Of a stretch of 64,000 nucleotides of DNA, positions 14,415 to 56,681 are shown piece after piece; position 1 is the first letter of the stretch; each line of letters begins with the position of its first letter. The stretch is from the NCBI GenBank assembly GCA_022376465.1, contig JACDTU010000005.1, positions 1,724,001 through 1,788,000 of the forward strand, read 5' to 3'. The notes beneath the pieces are model-generated. The model ran no database searches and had not been told where the DNA came from. It was given only the letters and a program-made list of their open reading frames with translations. The DNA is from Cubamyces lactineus (Eukaryota; Basidiomycota; Agaricomycetes; Polyporales; Polyporaceae). The translations under genes were made by a program, and so were the position numbers.

Positions 14415-16060
14415 ATGGCTGCTGTCCCCGCTGTACCCGTTGTCCCCGTCCCGGCACCGCCTGTGGTTCCGGGTATGCCTGATGTGCCAGCTCCTCCTGC
14501 TGCGCCAGCTCCTCCCGTTGCGGGTGGAGCGCCCGTTGTACCGGCGACGAACGTCACCTTCAACCTCGCCCGGGACTACTCTGGCCAAAACTTCTTCAAC
14601 GGCTGGGACTTTTACGGCTCGTGGGACAACTTGACGCTCAGTACGTGCTGCCTCCTTTCCCCTGCTGAAATAGTGAGGTAGAACAGTTGCTTATGTGCGC
14701 GTTCTTCTTGTGTTAGGTAACGTGTGGTGGGTAGACCAGCCCACGGCGGCGACGGACCAGCTCGCGTACATCAACCAGGCGGGGAACGCGATCCTCCGCG
14801 TCGACAACACGACCAACGTCCCCGACCAGGGCGCCAACACTAGAAGAAACACCGTACGTCCCCTCGCCTCTGTTGGCGTTGCAACCGCAGTTCAAATGTT
14901 CATCGTATTTTCGTTGCAGGTCCGCATCACGTCGCACGACTTCTACGACTTTGGCAGCCTGTGGGTGTTCGACGCGAAGCACGTCCCGTACGGCTGCACC
15001 GTCTGGCCCGCGTTCTGGACGAAAGGCCCCGTCTGGCCGGACAACGGCGAGATCGGTACGTCTCCCTCTCAACCTCTCAACCTCCCAACCTCCCCTTCGC
15101 CTCTCCGCCTCCTTGACGAATGCTAATCATGCGCGTCGGTCCATTGTGCAGACATCCTCGAGGCGGTGAACCTGATGACGTACAACCAGATGGCGATCCA
15201 CACGACGGACGGCTGCATGACGTCGAACCAGATCCAGCAGTCGGGCCAGCTCGGCTCGGCGGACTGCGCGAGCAACTCGGGCTGCACCGTCAGGGAGCTC
15301 AAGCCGGCGAGCTACGGCGACGACTTCAACAACGCCGGCGGCGGCGTGTGGGCGACCAAGTTCGACATCGACGGCATCGCGATTTGGTTCTGGAGCGTGC
15401 GTATCCCGCGTCTTGCCTCCCCGCGCGTCGCATCTTGAAGCGTGAATATGTGTACTGACTTGGACTCGGACTTGTGTGTCGACAGCGGCCGGATGTACCC
15501 GCGGAGCTGACGGGCGATGACAAGATCGTGGACATCTCCAAGTGGGGCGAGCCCTCTGCCGCGTTCCCTGTCTCGCCGCAGTGCGACATCACCAAGTTCT
15601 TCACGCCCCAGCAGCTCGTCATCGACATCGCCCTCTGCGGCGTCTGGTCAGTCCCGTCTCCCCACTAACCATCGGCATTCCACAGCGTACTCACCTGCGC
15701 ATCCATCGCGCTTCTCTCACCCACCACAGGGCCGGCCCGACGGGCAACTACCAGCAGACGTGCCCGGGCGTGTGCGACGTGAGCGGCGCGGGGAGCCCCG
15801 CGTTCGACAAGGCGTGGTTCGAGATCCAGTACGTGCGCGCGTACACGACGGGCGTCGTGCCGACCGCGACCCCAAGCGCGGCGAGCGGCGCGGCCGGGGC
15901 CGCGACAGCTACGAGCACCGCGACGGCCATCGCGGGACAGCAGGCGCATGGCGGCTCGTCGTCCGGCGCGGTGGGCGAGCGGACGCGCGGGAGGAGCGCG
16001 GGTGCGGTCGCGGTGGCGCTGTCGGTCATCGCGGGCGTGCTGCTCGCGATTTCGGCGTAG
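14415..16060 (+). CDS. GH16 beta-glucanase, GPI-anchored, atypical N-terminus
   Basis: Six exons: 14415-14640, 14717-14853, 14920-15055, 15152-15396, 15486-15646 and 15730-16060 (411 aa). The GH16 catalytic motif ExDxxE is GEIDILE, with nucleophile Glu165 and acid/base Glu170, within a jelly-roll carrying WPAFWTKGP and WDFYGSWDNLTL. The C-terminus is Ser/Thr/Ala-rich and ends in a hydrophobic GPI-attachment tail (VALSVIAGVLLAISA). By family it cleaves or remodels wall beta-1,3(4)-glucan at the cell surface. Oddity: the first 50 residues are a Pro/Val/Ala repeat instead of the normal signal peptide of its neighbour. An in-frame stop directly precedes the ATG but doubles as a possible acceptor (CCCTAG at 14394-14399), so an upstream signal-peptide exon is possible. 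Upstream member of a tandem pair. Confidence 0.88.
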
Positions 16061-20322: not shown

Positions 20323-21562
20323 ATGGAAGTCACGCCCGAGGAGCTGCAGACGACGGACTCGATCACGATCCGCGCGCTCAAAGACATCTCGTTCGGGAGC
20401 ATCGCCGGCATCGCGTCCAAGGTGTTCGAGCACCCGTTCGACCTCACCAAGGTCCGCCTCCAGTCGCAGGTCCTCGACGCCGAGGCGCGCTTCAGCGGCC
20501 CCATCGACTGCCTCGTCAAGACGTGGCGCAAGGAGGGCGTGCGCGGGCTCTACAGGGTGCGTCCTTGTCCCTTTCTCTCGCTCTTTCTTTCGCCCTTGCG
20601 TTGCCGGGCTGTTTGGCGTCTGAGAGTGCGTTGGATGGACGTGGGCTGAGATGGCGGACGCGCATGCGCGCGCGTTTGTGTAGGGGCTTCCAGCGCCGAT
20701 CGTAGGCGCGATGGCGGAGAACGCGTCGCTGTTCTGGGGCTACACGGAGCTGCAGCGCGTGATCCGGTGGTGGACGGGCATGCCGCTCTCGCAGAACCTC
20801 TCCCTCGGCCAGCTCGCGCTCGCGGGCGGAGGCGCGGGGTGCTTGACGAGCTTCGTCCTGTGAGTGCTCTCGTTCTCGCTCTTGGTGTGTTGTGGGGGTT
20901 CATCGTCACGCTTCGCCAGAACGCCCATCGAGCTCGTGAAGTGCAAGATGCAAGTGCAGATGCTCATGGTCCCTGCATCCGTCGCTTCCACCGCATCCGC
21001 CACCACCGCTGAAGCCGTCCTCGCTGCGCACCCCAGCGGACCCGTCCCCGCCTCGACATCACATCCCCTCAACAACACGCACCCTCCACGAAAGCTGCCA
21101 GGTCCCATCGCGGTGCTCACCTCCGTCGTGCGCGAGACTGGCCTGCGCGGGCTCTGGCTCGGGCACACCGGCACGCTCATCCGCGAGACCGGCGGCGGCG
21201 CGGCATGGTTCACGGCAAAAGAGAGCGTCGCGACGCTGCTCCTCGCGCGGCGCGGCGCGTCGGACAAGCGCGAGCTGCGCGCGTGGGAGAGCGGGGTGTC
21301 GGGCGCGTGCGCGGGCGTCGCGTACAACGTCGCGCTCTTCCCGGCGGACACGGTCAAGAGCGCGATGCAGACCGAGCTGGAGCTGCGTGGGCCGCGCGCG
21401 GGCGGGGCGCCGCCGTCGTTCTTGGGCATCTTGAGGGATATGTGGAGGGCGCAGGGCTTGAGGGGGCTGTATGCTGGGTGCGGGATCACGGTCGCGCGCG
21501 CGGTGCCGAGCAGCGCGTTGATATTCCTGATATACGATGGGCTGAGCAGGCGATTTGGATGA
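20323..21562 (+). CDS. ORT1: Mitochondrial carrier, ornithine/basic amino-acid type (Ort1/Arg-13-like)
   Basis: Three exons: 20323-20556, 20684-20859 and 20920-21562 (350 aa). It has three mitochondrial-carrier repeats with signatures HPFDLTKVRLQSQ, TPIELVKCKMQVQ and FPADTVKSAMQTE, each followed by the G-x-x-G-type helix of even-numbered segments. The third signature and the opening ALKDISFGSIAGIASK resemble fungal Ort1/Arg11/Arg-13, which exchanges ornithine (and arginine) across the mitochondrial inner membrane for arginine synthesis. An insertion of about 40 Pro/Ser/Ala-rich residues in the second matrix loop lengthens it beyond the usual 290-300 aa. The start has a strong Kozak context (CCGCCATGG). 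An in-frame extension of the frame upstream is open but not conserved-looking. Confidence 0.85.
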
Positions 21563-47952: not shown

Positions 47953-48555
47953 ATGCTATCGTCGTCACGTTCTCTGATGCGTAGACGAACATCGGCCTCA
48001 ACGCGCCCTCTCCAGAAAAGATCCGATGCGTACGGGATCCTCAACGACCCTCGAGGTTAGGTTGGAGGTAGGGTAGTAGCAGCGCTTCCTGCCCGGCGGC
48101 ACTCGTGTCGGGGCAGCAGGCAGCGCCTGGTGTGCCGAGTCGGCCGTGATGTTGACGATGATGCCATCGTACGGGGCCTCAACGTGCCCCTTTCTGTTGT
48201 ATGTCGCTGTACGAGTGGATGTTATGGATATTGAGTTGCGATATACGTGAACCGCCTTATTGCCAGCGAGTTGTGAACTATCATGGTATGTAAGCATAGC
48301 ATCGTTTATGTTTACCGTCTGACTTCACATGCCTGACTTAACGAAACCTGCATGGAACCCAGCAGCTACGTGTGCCTACTCGCATAGTGCTATTATCGAA
48401 CGCACCGTGTTTGGTACTGCTGGTGGACAGACAGTGCTTGGTCCCTGCTGTGTGTACATGCAGTACTGTCCGCGCATGAGCAGACGTAGGCTCGTGGACC
48501 AGTCGTTCGGGTCGGACATACGATCAGCCGTCGCAAGCTCCTCGAGGGATGTCCG
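47953..48555. other. Intergenic 0.6 kb
   Basis: 3' flank of SAH1 and sequence outside the left inverted repeat. No gene seen. Weak similarity to the right flank may extend the inverted repeat outward to about 48487. Confidence 0.5.
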
Positions 48556-48628
48556 AACGGCTGGTACGACTGGGCGTCGTTTTGGCAGGGCGTCCGTATA
48601 TGGTACCCGTGTGAAAACGTACTTGTTG
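48556..48628. repeat. Left copy of 73-bp inverted repeat bounding the RecQ-DUF6589 module
   Basis: The reverse complement of this 73-bp segment matches 56481-56553 at 67 of 73 positions without gaps (counted by eye). It includes an identical run of 27 bases around CACACGGGTACCATAT and another of 25. It begins 84 bp past the RecQ stop codon. Weaker similarity continues both inward and outward, so the full repeat may be 150 bp or longer. Confidence 0.9.
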
Positions 48629-48711
48629 ATATTTCGCTTTCGCTCCAGTGAGGAGAAGGGCCGGCGTCGAAATCCATGAATCTCCACAAGCTCTGGCCTA
48701 TTACAATTGTT

Positions 48712-51700
48712 CTAGTAGCTACCGTAGAATCCGTCTACAAAGTACTCCTCGTTCATATGTTGAGATCCCGATGGCATCGGTGACATCGCGCTCGGAATGC
48801 TGAGCGGTGGGCCCGGGTGCGAGGGCCATGAATGGACGGCGTCGATGGATTGTAGAGATGGCGTAGACGTAGCAGCCGGGTCCGGATTCTGGAGGAGAGG
48901 ATGAACAGAATCTGGCCATGAAAGAGAAAGACCGCCGGAGTTGGGCATGGTTTGAGACGGCGGCGTAGCAGATGCCAGTGAACTTGTGTTGCGATGGTCG
49001 AGGCGCGCTGCTTGAGTGTAACTTGGGTGCCGATGATCATCCAGCATGGCCGCGCTCAAGTGACTCCTGCTATGGGCCAGGTGTGTCTGTGCAAGTTCAC
49101 CATCGAAGGCGTAGTCGAGCCTTTGGCTTGCAGCATGACCGATGTGTGATGGGGTACTAGGCAGTGTTGCCATCGCCGTGCTGCCGAGACGAGGTCGCTT
49201 GGTTGGCGAGGGGGTGTAAGGTCCATAGGGTGAGTTCCTTGGGCTCGCCTCAAGCCGCTCAGGTTCCATCGGATACGGACGCTTGCTTGGTGTCGCCACA
49301 AGGGAAGGCAAGGCTGTATTCGAGGGCGCCATCTGAAACCTGGGACATGGAGGCACAAATGGCTGCTCAGCCTGAAAGCCTGCAAGACGTGCCCCAGCGT
49401 GAGGCGAGTAGGCGGGGATGATCACGGGGCTAGGCATAGATGGCCATCGCTCGACAGGTGTCGGCAGATAGTCCTGATTCGGAGGGGCAACAAGGTCCGG
49501 GCGGAACGTGCCACTGCCATAGCGCGGCGGTCCTACTGAGCGCAATGTCGGAGAACCCTTGACGTACGTAAGGGCAGACGGCGAGGGGGGTACAGAGAGG
49601 GTGTGTGGTTGGAATGAGAGGTGGCGCTGCGGTGATTGAGATGTAGAACGGTATTCCGCGCGGAATGGCGGCGGTGCAAGCGAAGGTGCGTGTTGGGAGA
49701 AGGGAGTTGATGAGAGTGTCAACTGCGTGCGAGGGGGCAGGGGACGCGCCGAAGGTGTTGACGTGTAGCTCCGAGCGTCATAAAGCATGGGCTGGGCGTT
49801 GCTTGTAGTCGTTGTGGGCTGAGGCAGCCAAACAGGGGCGGTGAGCGAGCTTGAGGGCAGTGAGGAACGTGGCCGCAGGTTTATGGGAGCTTGGTCGCGG
49901 TGCTGTGGATGGGATGGAGCAGGCATGGAGAGCGTGGGAGATGGTGGTGTAGGACGCGGAACACCGGCGCGAGCTTGAGACGCAGGAGTAGGAAGTCGGG
50001 AGGGCGGGATGGGAGTCGCCGATGTTTGAGCTAGCGATGCAGAAGGTGCAGAAGGGTGAGCGGGAGGTGCGCGCGGTTTCAAAGGGATGGGTGTGAATGT
50101 TATATCCATTGTCTCGAAAAGACGAGTGATTTCATGTCGGTACTCGTCCCAGAAGGTCCACTTGCCTCTCAGGAGGGTCTCCAGCTGGTCGGCGGATAGA
50201 GGTCCATAGAGAGTGAGCGTGGCGATGAGCTCATCGTTGAGGATAGCGCTCTCGTCGAATTGCGCATGAGGATGGTCGCGAGTGTAAATCTGCAGCCGCC
50301 ATTCGCGCAGTCTATCTTGAGCAGATGTATCCGGAAGCCCGCGCCTCATGGTTTTGGCTCGTCTCTCAGCTGAGACGACCGCTGGACGGCAGGTGTCGAA
50401 CAGAGAGGGAGAACAGATGTCGCAGCATGGGACAGTCAGCGCTGAAAAATACAGTCAGCATTGCCAACTGATGCAGAGCAGTGGTTCAGGTCTCACCAGT
50501 GGGTGCCGGGCTCTCGAAGACTTCAGCCCAAACTAGCCTGCGGCAAGACACGCTCTGAACGAATGTGAGGAGGCCTTCGTCTGGATCTTCGGGGTCAAGA
50601 AGAGGCTGTTGGCCGTTGGGAGGAGCGTCGTCGTGGCTGGTACCGCCACGTCCAACACCGTGGGACCTGGCATACTCGCGAGCCTCTTTAGGCTCTCTCT
50701 TGACGCTGGATGAGGCTCCTCCTGGCTCCCCGTCGGGAGCAGGTTTTGACGCTGCGGCGGCTTTGCGTCTAGTCTTCGCAGTCGAGCCAGCCTTGCCGTT
50801 CGCACCAGAGGCCTGTACGTTGACCTTATCGATACTGTACGCGGACTTCTCAACGAGTAAGATCGCGGTTCCTGTCCGACCGCGACCTCGCGCTGCACGG
50901 CCCGCACGCTGGATGAAGCTAGAGAAGGTCGTAGGCAACTTCCATTGCACTACACGGTCAATGTCCGGTATGTTGCAACCCTAGTACCATTTGTACAAAG
51001 AGAGAAACATCAGCAATTGAGGAACAGAGCAAGAGAGGTGGCGGTGCTTACCATTCCAGCAGCGTCCGTGCATACAAGCACGCGGATGGTACCTTGACGG
51101 AAGTGTGCCATGGCGAGACTACGGTACTCCTGCGACAACGTCGCGTTGAATGGCCGTATGAGACCGTTCGGGCATGAGCGTGCTGTGGTAGTACGAGTTT
51201 GTGGCTCCGAGCCCAAGTTCAAGTCGCTGTCTCCAGTGATCCCAGGTGACGGTGTGCCTGACTCCCATCGCTTAGTGAGTTCGTTGTTGAGGTAGTCCAA
51301 GATATCACCGCCTACAGCGATGTTGTCGACGTAGATATAAGTCTTCGGGATGTCAGCGGGATTACGGACACGAGGGGGTATGACGAAGCCGAGGTCCATG
51401 AAGGAATTGAGGGGATGTTCGCAGGCGCGAACAACAATTGATACGTTCGGGCGGTCATTACCTTTGTTGATGAAACGGGACTGTGCTTCTGACTGACTGA
51501 AGTGGAGGGCGTGATGGATTGTCCGGCGCACTTGGGCGGTGAGGGTTGCCGTGACCGCAATGACAGGGGTCCCACGAGGAAAGAACACCCGGACTTTACC
51601 CAACGAGCCATATTTCTTTCGAAATTCCGCACCCCAATGCGCAATGCAATGGGCCTCATCCACAAACATCGAGATGATGTTGCGCATGAACTGCGTGTTT

Positions 51701-52324
51701 CGTAAGATGCGATCTAGAAACATCCGCGACTGGACCATCTCGGGAGAGATGAGTATAATCTGATATTTCATGGCAAGTATATCCTTCGGAGAGCATGCGT
51801 GAGCTCACATACAGCATGAAGACTCTAGGCCATGTGCGGACTCACCTTGATGACTAGGGGCGAACAAGCTCCGTTCGCGCTGTTTAGAGCTACAGCGTTG
51901 AGTCCGAACTCGTTTTTGAAAGTCTGAACCTATCCAATAGATCATATAAGCATGCATTACACGGAATCGGAGGTTTTGATGACCTACTAACCATTTCTTC
52001 TTCGAGGGACAGCAATGGACACACCATAAGCGTGAATTTGCGTTCGTTTCCAGGCCATAGATGAGGGCCGGCAGCTAAGGCGGTTTTGCCGGACCCAGTG
52101 GGAGCTTGGACGATCATGTCGACGCCTTCAATCTGTGCTTGAACAGCAGCTAGTTGAAAGTCCTTGGGGTCAGCGTCCCACTTGAACGCACGTCGCATTT
52201 TCGAAGCAAGTGTCTTCAGCTGTTTGGCATTGAGCCGCGGGCGGGTCATCCCAGAGACAGTCGAGCGAGCCTTGGCAAACAAAGAACAGAAAGTAGCTGC
52301 ATTCTTCGGGTTTCGGCGAGCCAT
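48712..52324 (-). CDS. RecQ/Sgs1-type DNA helicase with long C-terminal extension
   Basis: Five exons: 52324-51992, 51929-51846, 51783-51052, 50980-50497 and 50441-48712 (1120 aa). Superfamily-2 helicase motifs: Q-like region KDFQLAAVQAQ, motif I APTGSGKT (74-81), motif II VDEAH (180-184), motif III TATLT, motif V ARVLVCTDAAGMGCNIPDID-like, and motif VI SFIQRAGRAARGRGRTG. A RecQ-type cysteine region follows (SCRRLVWAEVF, then CCDIC near 550). After it comes a conserved block (LREWRLQIYTRDHP, SAILNDELIATL, GPLSADQLETLL) that I recall at the C-end of agaricomycete Sgs1-like helicases, then about 430 Pro/Ser-rich residues. The last exon alone looks like a separate 545-aa protein, but the splice joins it in frame to the zinc region. 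It is a 3'-5' helicase by family. It diverges from the DUF6589 gene and is the left half of the inverted-repeat-bounded module. Confidence 0.88.
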
Positions 52325-52558
52325 TATAATCAATTGAGACGCAGAGTGTACAAGTAGGCAAGCAGGTCAACAAAGAGCGTAGAGTGCATAGAATGCGAAG
52401 CGTGCAAAAGGGTGGTTACCATTTTAGGACATCCGACGGTACTCCATGAATGGTCTGCAAGTAAACTCCTCCTCTCCCTAGACTCTCGACTCAACATCTA
52501 TCGCTTGGCCATATTCACCTAGTTCTGTACTGGGGCATTAGCAGGCCGCTCTCTAAAG
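52325..52558. promoter_or_regulatory. Bidirectional promoter of RecQ and DUF6589 genes
   Basis: The two start codons are separated by 234 bp, so expression is likely coupled. No clear TATA box on either side. Confidence 0.5.
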
Positions 52559-55500
52559 ATGCCGGACACTGAACTGGACGGCTTACTCACTATATCGCCG
52601 CTCAGCTCGCCTCTGAGCTCACCCCCAACCTCGAGACGGAACTCCCTGCTCGGCGGCCTACCACCCTCCTCACCTCTGCCATCGCACACTCCGCCAGCCA
52701 CAGGCAGCAGCCGTTTCCCTCAAGTTTACGCTCCTAGAGCAGACCTAGATACTTGGTCAGCTCCTTCAAGCGACCCCGGAGTCATCCCAACCTCGCCAAT
52801 TGTAGCCAACGCTGTCGAAACAAGAGATGAAGTCAGAAGACGTAAGGCGCAAAAAAAACGAAAGCGTACAATGGAAGCGCATTATACAAAACGGGTTTGC
52901 ACCCGCGAAGACATGCTACGCAGCGCTATAGAAGAGAACAATGCCGCCCGTGCCCTCTCGGAAGCGAACTTGGAGGAAGCGAGGGATTTGTGCTTCCAGG
53001 AGGTTCTCACGCGGCTTGAAGTCGCTGGGCTAACCTGGGGGGACCTTGTTGAGTGGATATGCACACCTGGGACGGGCCGAGGAGACATACGCTACCGTGG
53101 GTTGTTTGAGAGAGGAGCTCAAGTCGAGAGGATCCTAGACTTGTGGGTCTCAAAGAATTCGCGCACAGGGCGGGACACAGTGCACAAATGGGCTCTGCAA
53201 TACGTCGGACAGGTTGTCAGTAAGGAAGGCCATCAGGCAACCAAGAGCGGGACGTTGATGTCTTGCCGCATGGCACTCACCGAATCCTTTGTCCTCAATT
53301 TCAACTTCTCGAGCATGCACCGCGCTCTTAGCGACCTGTGCCCTTCTATGGCAGACCTGATGCACGCGTTTAGCACAACCCAGCGGCAGAGACATCGAGC
53401 CAAGCAAATCTCCGAGTCCGCTCAGGAGGAGGAAGTAGCGCAGAAGCGCGCTGACAACAAGGAAAAGGTGTGCGAACTCGCTCTTACCTTCAAGTGTAAT
53501 CTGACGTGTAAGATGCCTGTTCTTGCAGAGAGTCGGGCAAGCCTTGAGCAACCTGTTGGCAACCCGTAGTCAGAACAATAGTTATGTCCGACATATTCTC
53601 GGACTATACCTGTATACCTCGGGTGCCCAGCGCCAGGTGCTCTCAGTGCTATCCGCGCTCGGAATCTGTAGCGGTTACACAACGATTGCCGGAAGCGGTG
53701 TAAACGGCCGGAAAGGTGACAAAGGCACTTCGGACCAGGACCCCAGTGACGACTTGGTGAGCAATGAGGGCAGTGGGGACGAGCGCAAGGTTGATGAGGC
53801 GGGGGACGGGGATGATGGTGCCAGCGGTGCCGAAACAGTGGACTCAGACCTTGAATGGTTGCCTGAACTTGAAGAAGACGAGTCCGAGGAAGATGAAGAT
53901 GAAGATGAAGACGAGTCTGAGTCAGAGAGTTCGAAGTCGGAAAGTGAACCCACGCCGGAGGTAAGTACAGGTCAAAGACTTGAGGAGAGACGCGATCGAG
54001 ACGCGATCGAGCAGGAGCCAAACAACGCGTCACAAACGCCCACAACCGGTCTCAAGCACTCACTCTACCGCGGCGTGGGCCTGCTGCAGCGTCTCTGTGC
54101 AGCTTGTCGTCTGACCTCACGGACCTGCGCTCAGACTAAGCTATGCGGCCACGTCTATGACAACATCAATATGATGTTTAAAATTGCTGAACAAATCCTG
54201 GGCCGAAAGGACTCGCAAGAGAACGGAACATGCGCGACCATCTTTCCACTGCTAGATGCTCGTGCTGAAGACATGCAGACGGCTGATATGCTGGCGTCCT
54301 TCGATGCTGCTCCTCCACTCTCTCTCAAGGACATTCTCCACACGTCCATAGAAGCCATTCAATTTGAGGACTCGCTCGAACACGCTGCTCTCCGAGATCT
54401 GGTCTACACCTCTGACCTCTTCGCGCGCTTTCGTCCCGCCGTAGCAGCCAGTCTCCCTCACACCGACCATCAGATCCCGCTCCATCGCACTGAGATCCAC
54501 CCTCTCCCGACCATGAACATCGACGAGTCAAGCATCGTAGGGAACGCTCAAGTCATCGACACGATGTTTCAAGAGCTTGGGTTTGATGTAGGGACCACGA
54601 AGTTCTCAGGGATAGTCCGGCCCATTTTCGGTGATCAGCTCTCCATTGCTCGCCTCCGCACCCTCTTTGCAAACCGCGCAGGCCACGAAAGCATTGCACG
54701 ATCATACAGCAACCTCATCTTTGGCCCCGGCTTCTTCCATCATCAGATGGCTCTCACGCATGGCATTATCGAAACGCACTGGGGCGACCCGCATGCAGGG
54801 ACGAGGAATCCTGGCTCTCTCTCCTTCCTCAACACTGTGCTTGATCGCAAACCAATCGTTTTGACTTCGCTTCCCCCCTATCGCACTTGCCGTGATCTGA
54901 TCTTCGTCTCGCTGTCAGCTTGTCTCCTCCACTGCCTTGAACGTGTCTGTGGATGGGACTCGTTCAGCGATTACATCGCCGAGGTGTCCTTCAACGATTT
55001 TTGTGCACATGTCAAGAAAATCATGAAGACCTATGTCAATGCGGCTGAAGTTGCGGTCTTGCGGTCCCAGCGAGAACAGCAGATGCGAACCCATCATGCA
55101 AACCTGGCTGCAGAGCACAACACGAAGCGTAAGTAGTCCAGAAGCTCTACGTCTACTGTGCTAATTTAACCTGCCACAGCTGTTATACCTACTACGACAG
55201 ACGGCCCGGGTTTAGCGGATGCACCTCAGCCGCCGGAGGCAGCCGCCTCCCAGTGTCCGAGTTCGACCACCAAGACACCTCAAGTTACAGAGGGAGACAT
55301 CATCTACGAGAACATTTGTCTGTTCCTCCGCGACGCACTCGTCTTGCGTGAGTTCACCGATGCCATCAAAGGAGGCTATTCCGGGCGCATCATCCGCACC
55401 CTGAAAGTCCTCGCGCTCATGTACCGTGGCAGCGGGCGTACAAAATACGCCCACGAACTCCTGCACCTTATCCATAACCTCACACATGTTTGGCCCAAGC

Positions 55501-56376
55501 CTCTGAGGTATGGCTCTGCTTGAAGCATGTTTTTCACGAACTCACGTTTGCATAGGGACATAGTAATCAAGAACTGGCTCGTCAATCCGTCGGGAAAGCC
55601 CAATTCATGGGTGCCCGTCGATCTCCTGCAAGAGCATATGAATTTCTGGGTGAAGGTACGGCACAGGCATCTCTTAATCAACAGCTACTGACCACATACC
55701 CAGGTGATCTTCAAGGCGCAGGGTAGCAATGCATCGTGGGACTGGCTCGGGATGATCTCCCCTTGCATTGGCGTGTTGCGCAAGTTAGCCCTCGAAGTCA
55801 ACGGCGCGCTCGGGGTCAGGCTCGGCTCGAAGCATCATACGCCAAACGTTGAGCGCGATTTGATGGCAATATGCAATTCCCTTCAAGAGCACAATGTCTT
55901 TGGAATTGAGCGCGGCCGTGTCATCAACCCGATAGACGTAATGAACGGACTTGTCCCCAACGTAATCAATATCGGCCTCAACCAGCTCGCAGGCCCCTTG
56001 GACGAATACAACGACGTGTTTCGAAAGCTTCAGCGCCGACGCCGAATGACACCCTTGATCGAACTTGCGGCACCTGCTGGGGACGTGGAGTCTCAAACTC
56101 ACAGGACGTCAGACGTGCGTTTCGTCCTTTGGCTTGTTATCTACTATGGATCTATACCCTCTGCTGATCTGGTCACGCTCTTAGCTGCATGGTACTACCA
56201 GCAACCTAGCTGCTACTGCGGCAGACTATTTAGATGCATCCCACCAGGAGGACGATCATGTCAGCGACACGGACAATGAAGAAGACCTCTGGCGTTTCTT
56301 TGATAGTGATACTTATGATGTACGGCACGCTTTTGCAGAGGAGGATGAGCCGTCTTTGAATCTCGATGACTACTAG
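52559..56376 (+). CDS. DUF6589 protein (basidiomycete family, unknown function)
   Basis: Six exons: 52559-53467, 53529-55128, 55180-55507, 55556-55655, 55704-56114 and 56185-56376 (1179 aa). The N-terminal 300 residues are Ser/Pro-rich, then basic, then helical. The family core has SQNNSYVRHILGLYLYTSGA near 320, an acidic insert (about 390-440), GDQLSIARLRTL and FHHQMALTHGIIETHWGDP near 670-730, NPGSLSFLNTVLDRKPI and LPPYRTCRDLIFVSL. Later exons give NWLVNPSG, DLLQEHMNFW and a terminal DSDTYDVRHAFAEEDEPSL. These segments match my memory of DUF6589, a large agaricomycete-expanded family of unknown activity. The Asp of GDQ and the His/Trp pair of THWG are candidate catalytic residues for a nuclease or transposase fold, which is inference. 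It is the right half of the inverted-repeat-bounded module. Confidence 0.82.
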
Positions 56377-56480
56377 TATATACATGTATTCAATGTGCAC
56401 CCGCTATGATACCGCTGCGCCCACAGCTGCCTATTGCGCGACCACCTCCTACTGCAGTTCCACTAGACGAAACACAATTT

Positions 56481-56553
56481 CACCAAGTACGTTTTCACAC
56501 GGGTACCATATTTGGACGCCCTGCCAAAACGACGCCCAGTTGGACCAGTCGTT
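56481..56553. repeat. Right copy of 73-bp inverted repeat bounding the RecQ-DUF6589 module
   Basis: Inverted counterpart of 48556-48628, 67 of 73 matching, beginning 105 bp past the DUF6589 stop. The two copies enclose 8.0 kb. A second patch of similarity (CCCGAnCGACTGGT) follows in both copies about 60 bp further out. Confidence 0.9.
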
Positions 56554-56681
56554 AGGGCGCAAGCTGTCTTTCAAACCCCGATTGACAGCTTCCACGCGCG
56601 TCCCGATCGACTGGTTTTCGAGTCTAGAGCAGACGGGTGGGCATCAGTCATGCTGGATGGAGCATGTGTGCCTATCTTGAT

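Follow-up and report, generated by a model that had tools for sequence, protein, structure and literature searches.

Several described DNA transposons carry a helicase or have a transposase of comparable fold. Helitrons encode a transposase and a helicase and have a hairpin at one end; to our knowledge, they have neither target duplications nor long terminal inverted repeats. Duplications are of 8 bp for hAT and P elements and of 5 bp for Transib, and we know of no helicase in hAT, P element or Transib/RAG1. The RecQ proteins form a family of 3'-5' helicases, and KolobokH, which has one, targets TTAA. AcademH, of the Academ superfamily, was reportedly described by Kojima in 2020 (Mob DNA 11:15). 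From passages of two articles (PMC10045372, PMC10799480), AcademH associates a DDD/E transposase with a helicase and with 9- or 10-bp target duplications, and is present in low copy number in Basidiomycota. A remark in one of these passages links its longer duplications to its helicase (PMC10045372). In a passage of a third article, KolobokH is presented as a DNA transposon of fungi in which the transposase domain is followed downstream by a RecQ helicase (PMC9587614).

In the window, i.e. the whole stretch of 64,000 nucleotides analysed here from Cubamyces lactineus (Polyporales; contig C39), we identified an intact DNA transposon of 8140 bp, located at positions 48487-56626. This element has defined termini and two intact genes, RecQ and DUF6589. 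The perfect 9-bp duplication that flanks it, the multi-copy family with matching ends to which it belongs, the short non-autonomous relatives of this family and the DDE-like predicted fold of the DUF6589 protein all agree with the autonomous DNA element proposed in a preliminary description of the locus. It is very probably an intact AcademH-type DNA transposon that moves by cut-and-paste, and a probably autonomous one.

Boundaries and genes of the element

The tips of the element (TAGGCTCG from 48487 and CGAGTCTA up to 56626) are bordered, directly outside, by the perfect 9-bp direct repeat GAGCAGACG (Table 1). When the ends of related loci are aligned, homology runs on outward to the tip TAGRCTCG; this continuity, together with the duplication just outside the tips, sets the limits of the element. 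The preliminary description made it end at a 73-bp repeat. This boundary is ruled out by the aligned ends, which reach TAGRCTCG, where the duplication sits, so that, at either end, the true terminus is about 70 bp farther outward. The outer part had been overlooked because it holds a hairpin, the sequence of which is unlike between the left and right ends. Inverted copies flanking the gene pair had also been noted, and these are real: the arms 48553-48633 and 56476-56556 are 90% identical over 81 nt without gaps, and a gapped alignment gives 85 identical positions out of 98 (E = 1e-28).

Table 1. Position of the features of the transposon in the window
Feature	Position	Strand	Remarks
Left target-site duplication GAGCAGACG	48478..48486	.	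Exact match to right copy
Left tip TAGGCTCGTGGA	48487..48498	+	10-end alignment; first 8 letters conserved among ends
Left terminal hairpin, 66-nt span	48499..48564	+	11/13 first stem positions Watson-Crick; DNA folding z -4.3
Left core, terminal inverted repeat	48565..48650	+	Aligns with 56461-56544
RecQ-family helicase gene	48712..52324	-	Gene model: 5 exons, 4 introns, 1118-1120 aa, intact; ATG 52324, final stop-codon base 48712; open through short GT-AG introns
Divergent intergenic region, 234 bp	52325..52558	.	Between the two ATGs
DUF6589 gene, likely transposase	52559..56376	+	Gene model: 6 exons, 5 introns, 1179 aa, intact; ATG 52559, stop ending 56376; open through short GT-AG introns
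Right core, terminal inverted repeat	56461..56544	-	Aligns with left core
Right terminal hairpin, 70-nt span	56545..56614	-	11/13 first stem positions Watson-Crick; DNA folding z -4.8
Right tip TAGACTCGAAAA (read inward)	56615..56626	-	Related-end alignment and adjoining duplication
Right target-site duplication GAGCAGACG	56627..56635	.	Exact match to left copy

The gene models confirm two divergent genes with a 234-bp gap between their ATGs. These models are mechanical, and the NCBI models P0001 (911 aa, DUF6589) and P0121 (1095 aa) differ from them in detail. Within its first 662 amino acids, the RecQ protein matches the Pfam domains DEAD and Helicase_C above cut-off; against TIGR00614 (recQ_fam), it reaches 147 bits, under the cut-off of 219.8. 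No RQC domain match was found in this protein, which has a long, low-complexity C-terminal tail. One RecQ exon used as query matches the solved relatives RecQ, RECQ5, WRN and BLM.

The second protein, P0001, matches PF20231 (DUF6589) with 464.5 bits. It had been suggested that DUF6589 could be the nuclease or transposase of the element and that its fold should be predicted and compared. Foldseek alone gave no significant match with the predicted structure. In a structural comparison, the best 25 rows were all Hermes, P element, RAG1 or Transib, and the prediction resembles in fold those DDE (RNase H-like) transposases that have an insertion domain. On this predicted fold, DUF6589 is likely a DDE transposase with an RNase H-like core and an insertion domain. 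Four acids are conserved (D306, D464, E670 and E713 in P0001 numbering), identified from conservation; we infer that D306, D464 and, as third residue, E713 or E670 are the candidate catalytic acids.

A multi-copy family in the host genome and in other fungi

A search of the host genome with PF20231 gave 20 matches, corresponding to 10 DUF6589 loci when two pieces at C14 are counted as parts of a single gene interrupted by an insertion. With one RecQ exon of the window as query, 11 matches were obtained at 10 places, all of them near a DUF6589 locus (weakest match at C2, E = 4.6e-5). The two genes are 11-12 kb apart at three loci (C11, C15 and one of the C43 copies), and closer at the other loci. 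Their order is divergent at four loci (C39, C12, C14 and C11) and convergent at six (C8, C1, C2, C15 and both C43 copies). The elements at C14 (22,199 bp) and C11 (32,710 bp) are long because they contain stretches, lying between long, nearly identical direct repeats, that look like nested LTR retrotransposons.

The ends of the window element, searched in the host genome, yielded beyond the window just partial copies at C42 and C25 (77-80% identity) and, at C11, a piece of 39 bp belonging to the end of a related element; such a search may miss copies. A genome search for the core of these ends (CCGTGTGAAAAYGKACTT) gave 10 exact matches, i.e. two in each of four elements and one each at C42 and C25, where it stands as a single end with no gene found. 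Two further matches have two mismatches, versus two for the reversed control pattern. As 8 of the 10 exact matches end four RecQ/DUF6589 elements, the core is not spread through the genome. The preliminary description had raised both the possibility of a repeat occurring genome-wide without link to these genes, which is not what we observed, and that of other loci with the same repeat around the pair, which do exist, the core being common to both ends of the four elements. The tip pattern YAGRCTCSTNCCCA gave 43 genome matches versus 5 for the control. The variant CAGGCTCCTACCCA accounts for 21 of them, of which 20 make 10 inverted pairs with a spacing of 1.1 to 14.5 kb: two hold the gene pair (C8 and C15), seven span 1.1-1.6 kb, and one at C5 (11.4 kb) has no DUF6589 or RecQ match inside.

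Target duplications, another expectation of the preliminary description, are exact over 9 bp in 13 of the 15 elements with both ends defined, including that of the window, and the duplicated sequence varies from site to site. From the first set of 14 elements, 12 have an exact duplication, C3 has 8 of 9 letters and C17 has none; besides that of the window, perfect 9-bp direct repeats are for instance TGGCACGAT at C12 and GTAGGGGAG at C14. A motif scan of the merged stretches recovered C12, C14, C8 and C39 and added C1, an element of 5926 bp with the exact duplication GGAGCCCAT. The same scan found no tip pair with a duplication at C2 or C43, and C11 and C15 were beyond its reach, their left ends being outside the merged stretches. 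A short copy at C4 has an 861-bp middle 98% identical to C11:535400-536255, which lies inside another short copy with a different duplication; this identity between differently duplicated sites indicates that the C4/C11 short-copy family moved recently. The coding DNA of the divergent family (C39, C12, C14 and C11) is 66-77% identical where aligned (stretches >150 bp), that of C39 being aligned at this length to C12 only. Judging from these sequences, the divergent family is more diverse than the short-copy family.

Across fungi, DUF6589 has at least 343 relatives and RecQ at least 274 (120 listed for each), and the named matches among those listed are, presumably, from Agaricomycetes. The listed matches of the two proteins have 54 contigs in common, out of 117 and 118 distinct contig sizes, contigs being paired by their exact size in bp as a proxy for identity, irrespective of species, and adjacency being unproven on large contigs. 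Three pairs are consecutive gene tags on contigs smaller than 10 kb (EVJ58_g10195/g10196, NM688_g6203/g6204 and NM688_g6046/g6047). No match was found in plasmids, and none of the 21 pattern stretches in viral contigs is a relative.

Possible terminal hairpins

In the divergent family, a hairpin is present in all 10 ends, starting 11-12 nt from the tip and spanning 59-79 nt. The stems are unlike in sequence between ends yet complementary within each of them. Over the first 13 stem positions, the two arms of an end form on average 12.1 Watson-Crick pairs (range 10-13), versus 9.0 for arms from different ends (maximum 13, some related ends pairing fully), and none of 20,000 arm reassignments attained the observed pairing sum. 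For pair counts, the arms were aligned by themselves, since the whole-end MAFFT alignment shifted one group of ends by one column. The 3' arm was the best-pairing one among candidate CTGG sites (C25 and C12 right included), a choice that favours pairing somewhat. In the covariation count, 96.9% of cells were paired versus 79.6% in shuffles, 23 cells were changed on both sides versus 7.9, and the covariation score was 0.526 versus 0.191, none of 500 shuffles being as high for any of the three. Stricter counts gave a weaker signal, with double-sided changes at 7 of 13 pairs versus 4.9 (32 of 500 shuffles as high) and 14 further pair types versus 10.7 (19 of 500). Sliding the partner arm by one column lowered pairing to 40-50%. 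The covariation is strong, yet these shuffle counts are not a probability, because the control keeps relatedness and the ends are related.

The DNA folding energies of the 10 hairpins are 4.3 to 8.6 SD below those of dinucleotide shuffles. Of the 6393 windows of 74 nt across the 64 kb, 34 match or surpass the left hairpin in folding and 62 the right one; by energy alone, the hairpins of the window element are thus unusual, not unique. In a second family of ends (C8 left and right, and both C4 ends), a stem with a larger loop follows 11 unpaired nt, and matched changes between the C8 and C4 stems were seen by eye. At C1, the left end carries a long stem in the corresponding position and the right end shows no clear hairpin. 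In total, 15 of the 16 ends examined, from three end families and including two near-identical C4 ends, have a hairpin starting 10-12 nt from the tip; the C3 ends, of which the stretch analysed is too short to judge, are outside this count. In the literature searched, which did not extend to the original AcademH paper, we found no fitting description of hairpins on such ends; we do not claim that they are unpublished, and they are the part that may be new.

As for the mechanism, DUF6589 would bind each end at its tip, hairpin and core, pair the ends, excise the element and insert it with a 9-bp stagger. More tentatively, RecQ could open the ends or the target, or process or resolve the hairpins, the repair gap or a joined intermediate, and the 9-bp stagger might go with the helicase, as would fit the remark on AcademH in the published passage (PMC10045372). 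It is conceivable, with considerable doubt, that this cut-and-paste DDE transposon, with a transposase of the DUF6589 family, has ends read partly by DNA shape: a single-strand or cruciform hairpin 10-12 nt from the tip would be exposed or resolved by RecQ, and the 9-bp stagger would depend on that step.

Alternative explanations and comparison with described transposons

The covarying hairpins might also be non-functional, which we consider rather unlikely, if template switching during replication kept rewriting one arm from the other. According to a passage of a published article, this process can create and maintain perfect stems without selection (PMC8794818), so that the function of the hairpins stays putative; the right end of C1 and the 74-nt windows that fold as well or better point in the same direction. 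However, palindromes made by template switching need not sit at one place, and the fixed position of the hairpins in three end families counts against it, as do the double-sided changes at 7 of 13 pairs in the window family. The gene pair itself was first described from one locus only, so that two ordinary host genes that happen to have an unrelated repeat on either side, or a segmentally duplicated stretch of conserved synteny, had to be considered. This is refuted by the exact 9-bp duplications, different in sequence at each site, and a gene order that is divergent at four loci and convergent at six also counts against it. Moreover, separate RecQ-type loci exist in the host away from DUF6589, for instance at C12:2743228-2745035 (which has the only RQC match found), C34 and C13; TIGR00614 gave 38 matches in this genome, one of them at C12:2743363-2745035, none above cut-off and many being general helicase matches. 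The target duplications also rule out host genes with shared 3' regions.

Finally, the element could belong to an undescribed superfamily of RecQ-bearing DDE transposons, resembling AcademH through convergence in helicase and stagger length. Accessory RecQ genes have been gained more than once by DNA transposons, KolobokH having one too (PMC9587614), the likeness to AcademH is one of description, and the name DUF6589 is absent from the literature searched. We nevertheless judge this improbable, as helicase, 9-bp duplication, inverted repeats and low-copy occurrence in Basidiomycota all coincide with AcademH as portrayed in the published passages (PMC10045372, PMC10799480).

The element points to a likely function for DUF6589, so far an uncharacterised Pfam family and a common one among mushroom-forming fungi: its members are best regarded as probable DDE transposases, and RecQ genes adjoining them as parts of a transposon, not as repair genes of the host. 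With an intact copy whose ends are defined, experiments can address why a helicase is carried by some DNA transposons. Should the covarying hairpins prove functional, it would be uncommon for a DDE transposase to read the structure of the DNA at its ends.

Among described systems, Helitrons share with the window element a transposase and a helicase, but they are ruled out by the inverted-repeat ends and 9-bp duplications of the latter, which moreover has a DDE-like predicted fold. The transposases of hAT (Hermes), P element and Transib/RAG1 resemble the DUF6589 prediction in fold; hAT and P element are ruled out by a duplication of 9 bp, not 8 bp. KolobokH is likewise a fungal DNA transposon carrying a RecQ helicase, but its helicase lies downstream of the transposase domain whereas RecQ is here a separate divergent gene, and duplications of 9 bp that vary between sites, instead of TTAA, rule it out. 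No paper combining Academ, transposase, XPG and helicase was found in the literature searched. The preliminary description knew of no element with RecQ and DUF6589; in the literature searched, this stands for the name DUF6589, but the combination of transposase, helicase and 9- or 10-bp duplication is in print as AcademH. Compared by description, the window element is probably an AcademH, from which it has no known difference: both have a helicase beside the transposase (here RecQ-family and intact), terminal inverted repeats and a low copy number in Basidiomycota, and the 9 bp duplicated here are within the 9 or 10 bp of AcademH, an agreement in helicase, in the length of the duplication, in the repeats at the ends and in the group of the host.

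Solitary ends and inverted DUF6589 copies

In the host genome, two single ends of the window family, the elements with divergent gene order, are probably truncated copies (table). No partner end was found for either by a core-pattern search of the genome, and genome searches for DUF6589 and RecQ gave no match at either site. On contig C43, the two inverted arms are 100% identical to each other, and the DUF6589 copies that they carry are both flanked, on their outer sides, by RecQ matches of the window type. The arrangement could reflect an inverted duplication that happened recently, or else it stems from the assembly.

Coordinates of the inverted arms and of the solitary ends
Feature	Location	Remark
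Inverted arm with one DUF6589 copy	C43:693969-698821	4853 bp
Inverted arm with one DUF6589 copy	C43:701537-706389	4853 bp
Single window-family end	C42:453721-453864	hairpin and core
Single window-family end	C25:192773-192912	hairpin and core

An element without DUF6589 or RecQ matches, relatives of the short C4 copy, and window features

An 11,363-bp element (C5:979205-990567) with an exact 9-bp duplication contains no DUF6589 or RecQ match in the genome searches; its interior may include other cargo or a nested insertion. The short non-autonomous C4 copy has additional relatives at C9:566493-567389 and at C42:337069-345620, the latter interrupted by several kb of different sequence.

In the window, the C-terminal half of RecQ (48712-50349) is a long tail rich in proline and serine, and this open frame has no Pfam match. 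Among 74-nt windows, the most stable single-strand folds are located at 15831-15961 and 21211-21301, both outside the transposon.

Nested stretches in the C11 and C14 elements

The C11 and C14 elements each contain an internal stretch bounded by 543-bp direct repeats, whose paired copies are 100% and 99.8% identical. A second C14 stretch, bounded by 308-bp direct repeats, encloses the first. The two stretches bounded by 543-bp repeats are ~93% alike and probably belong to a single LTR retrotransposon family.
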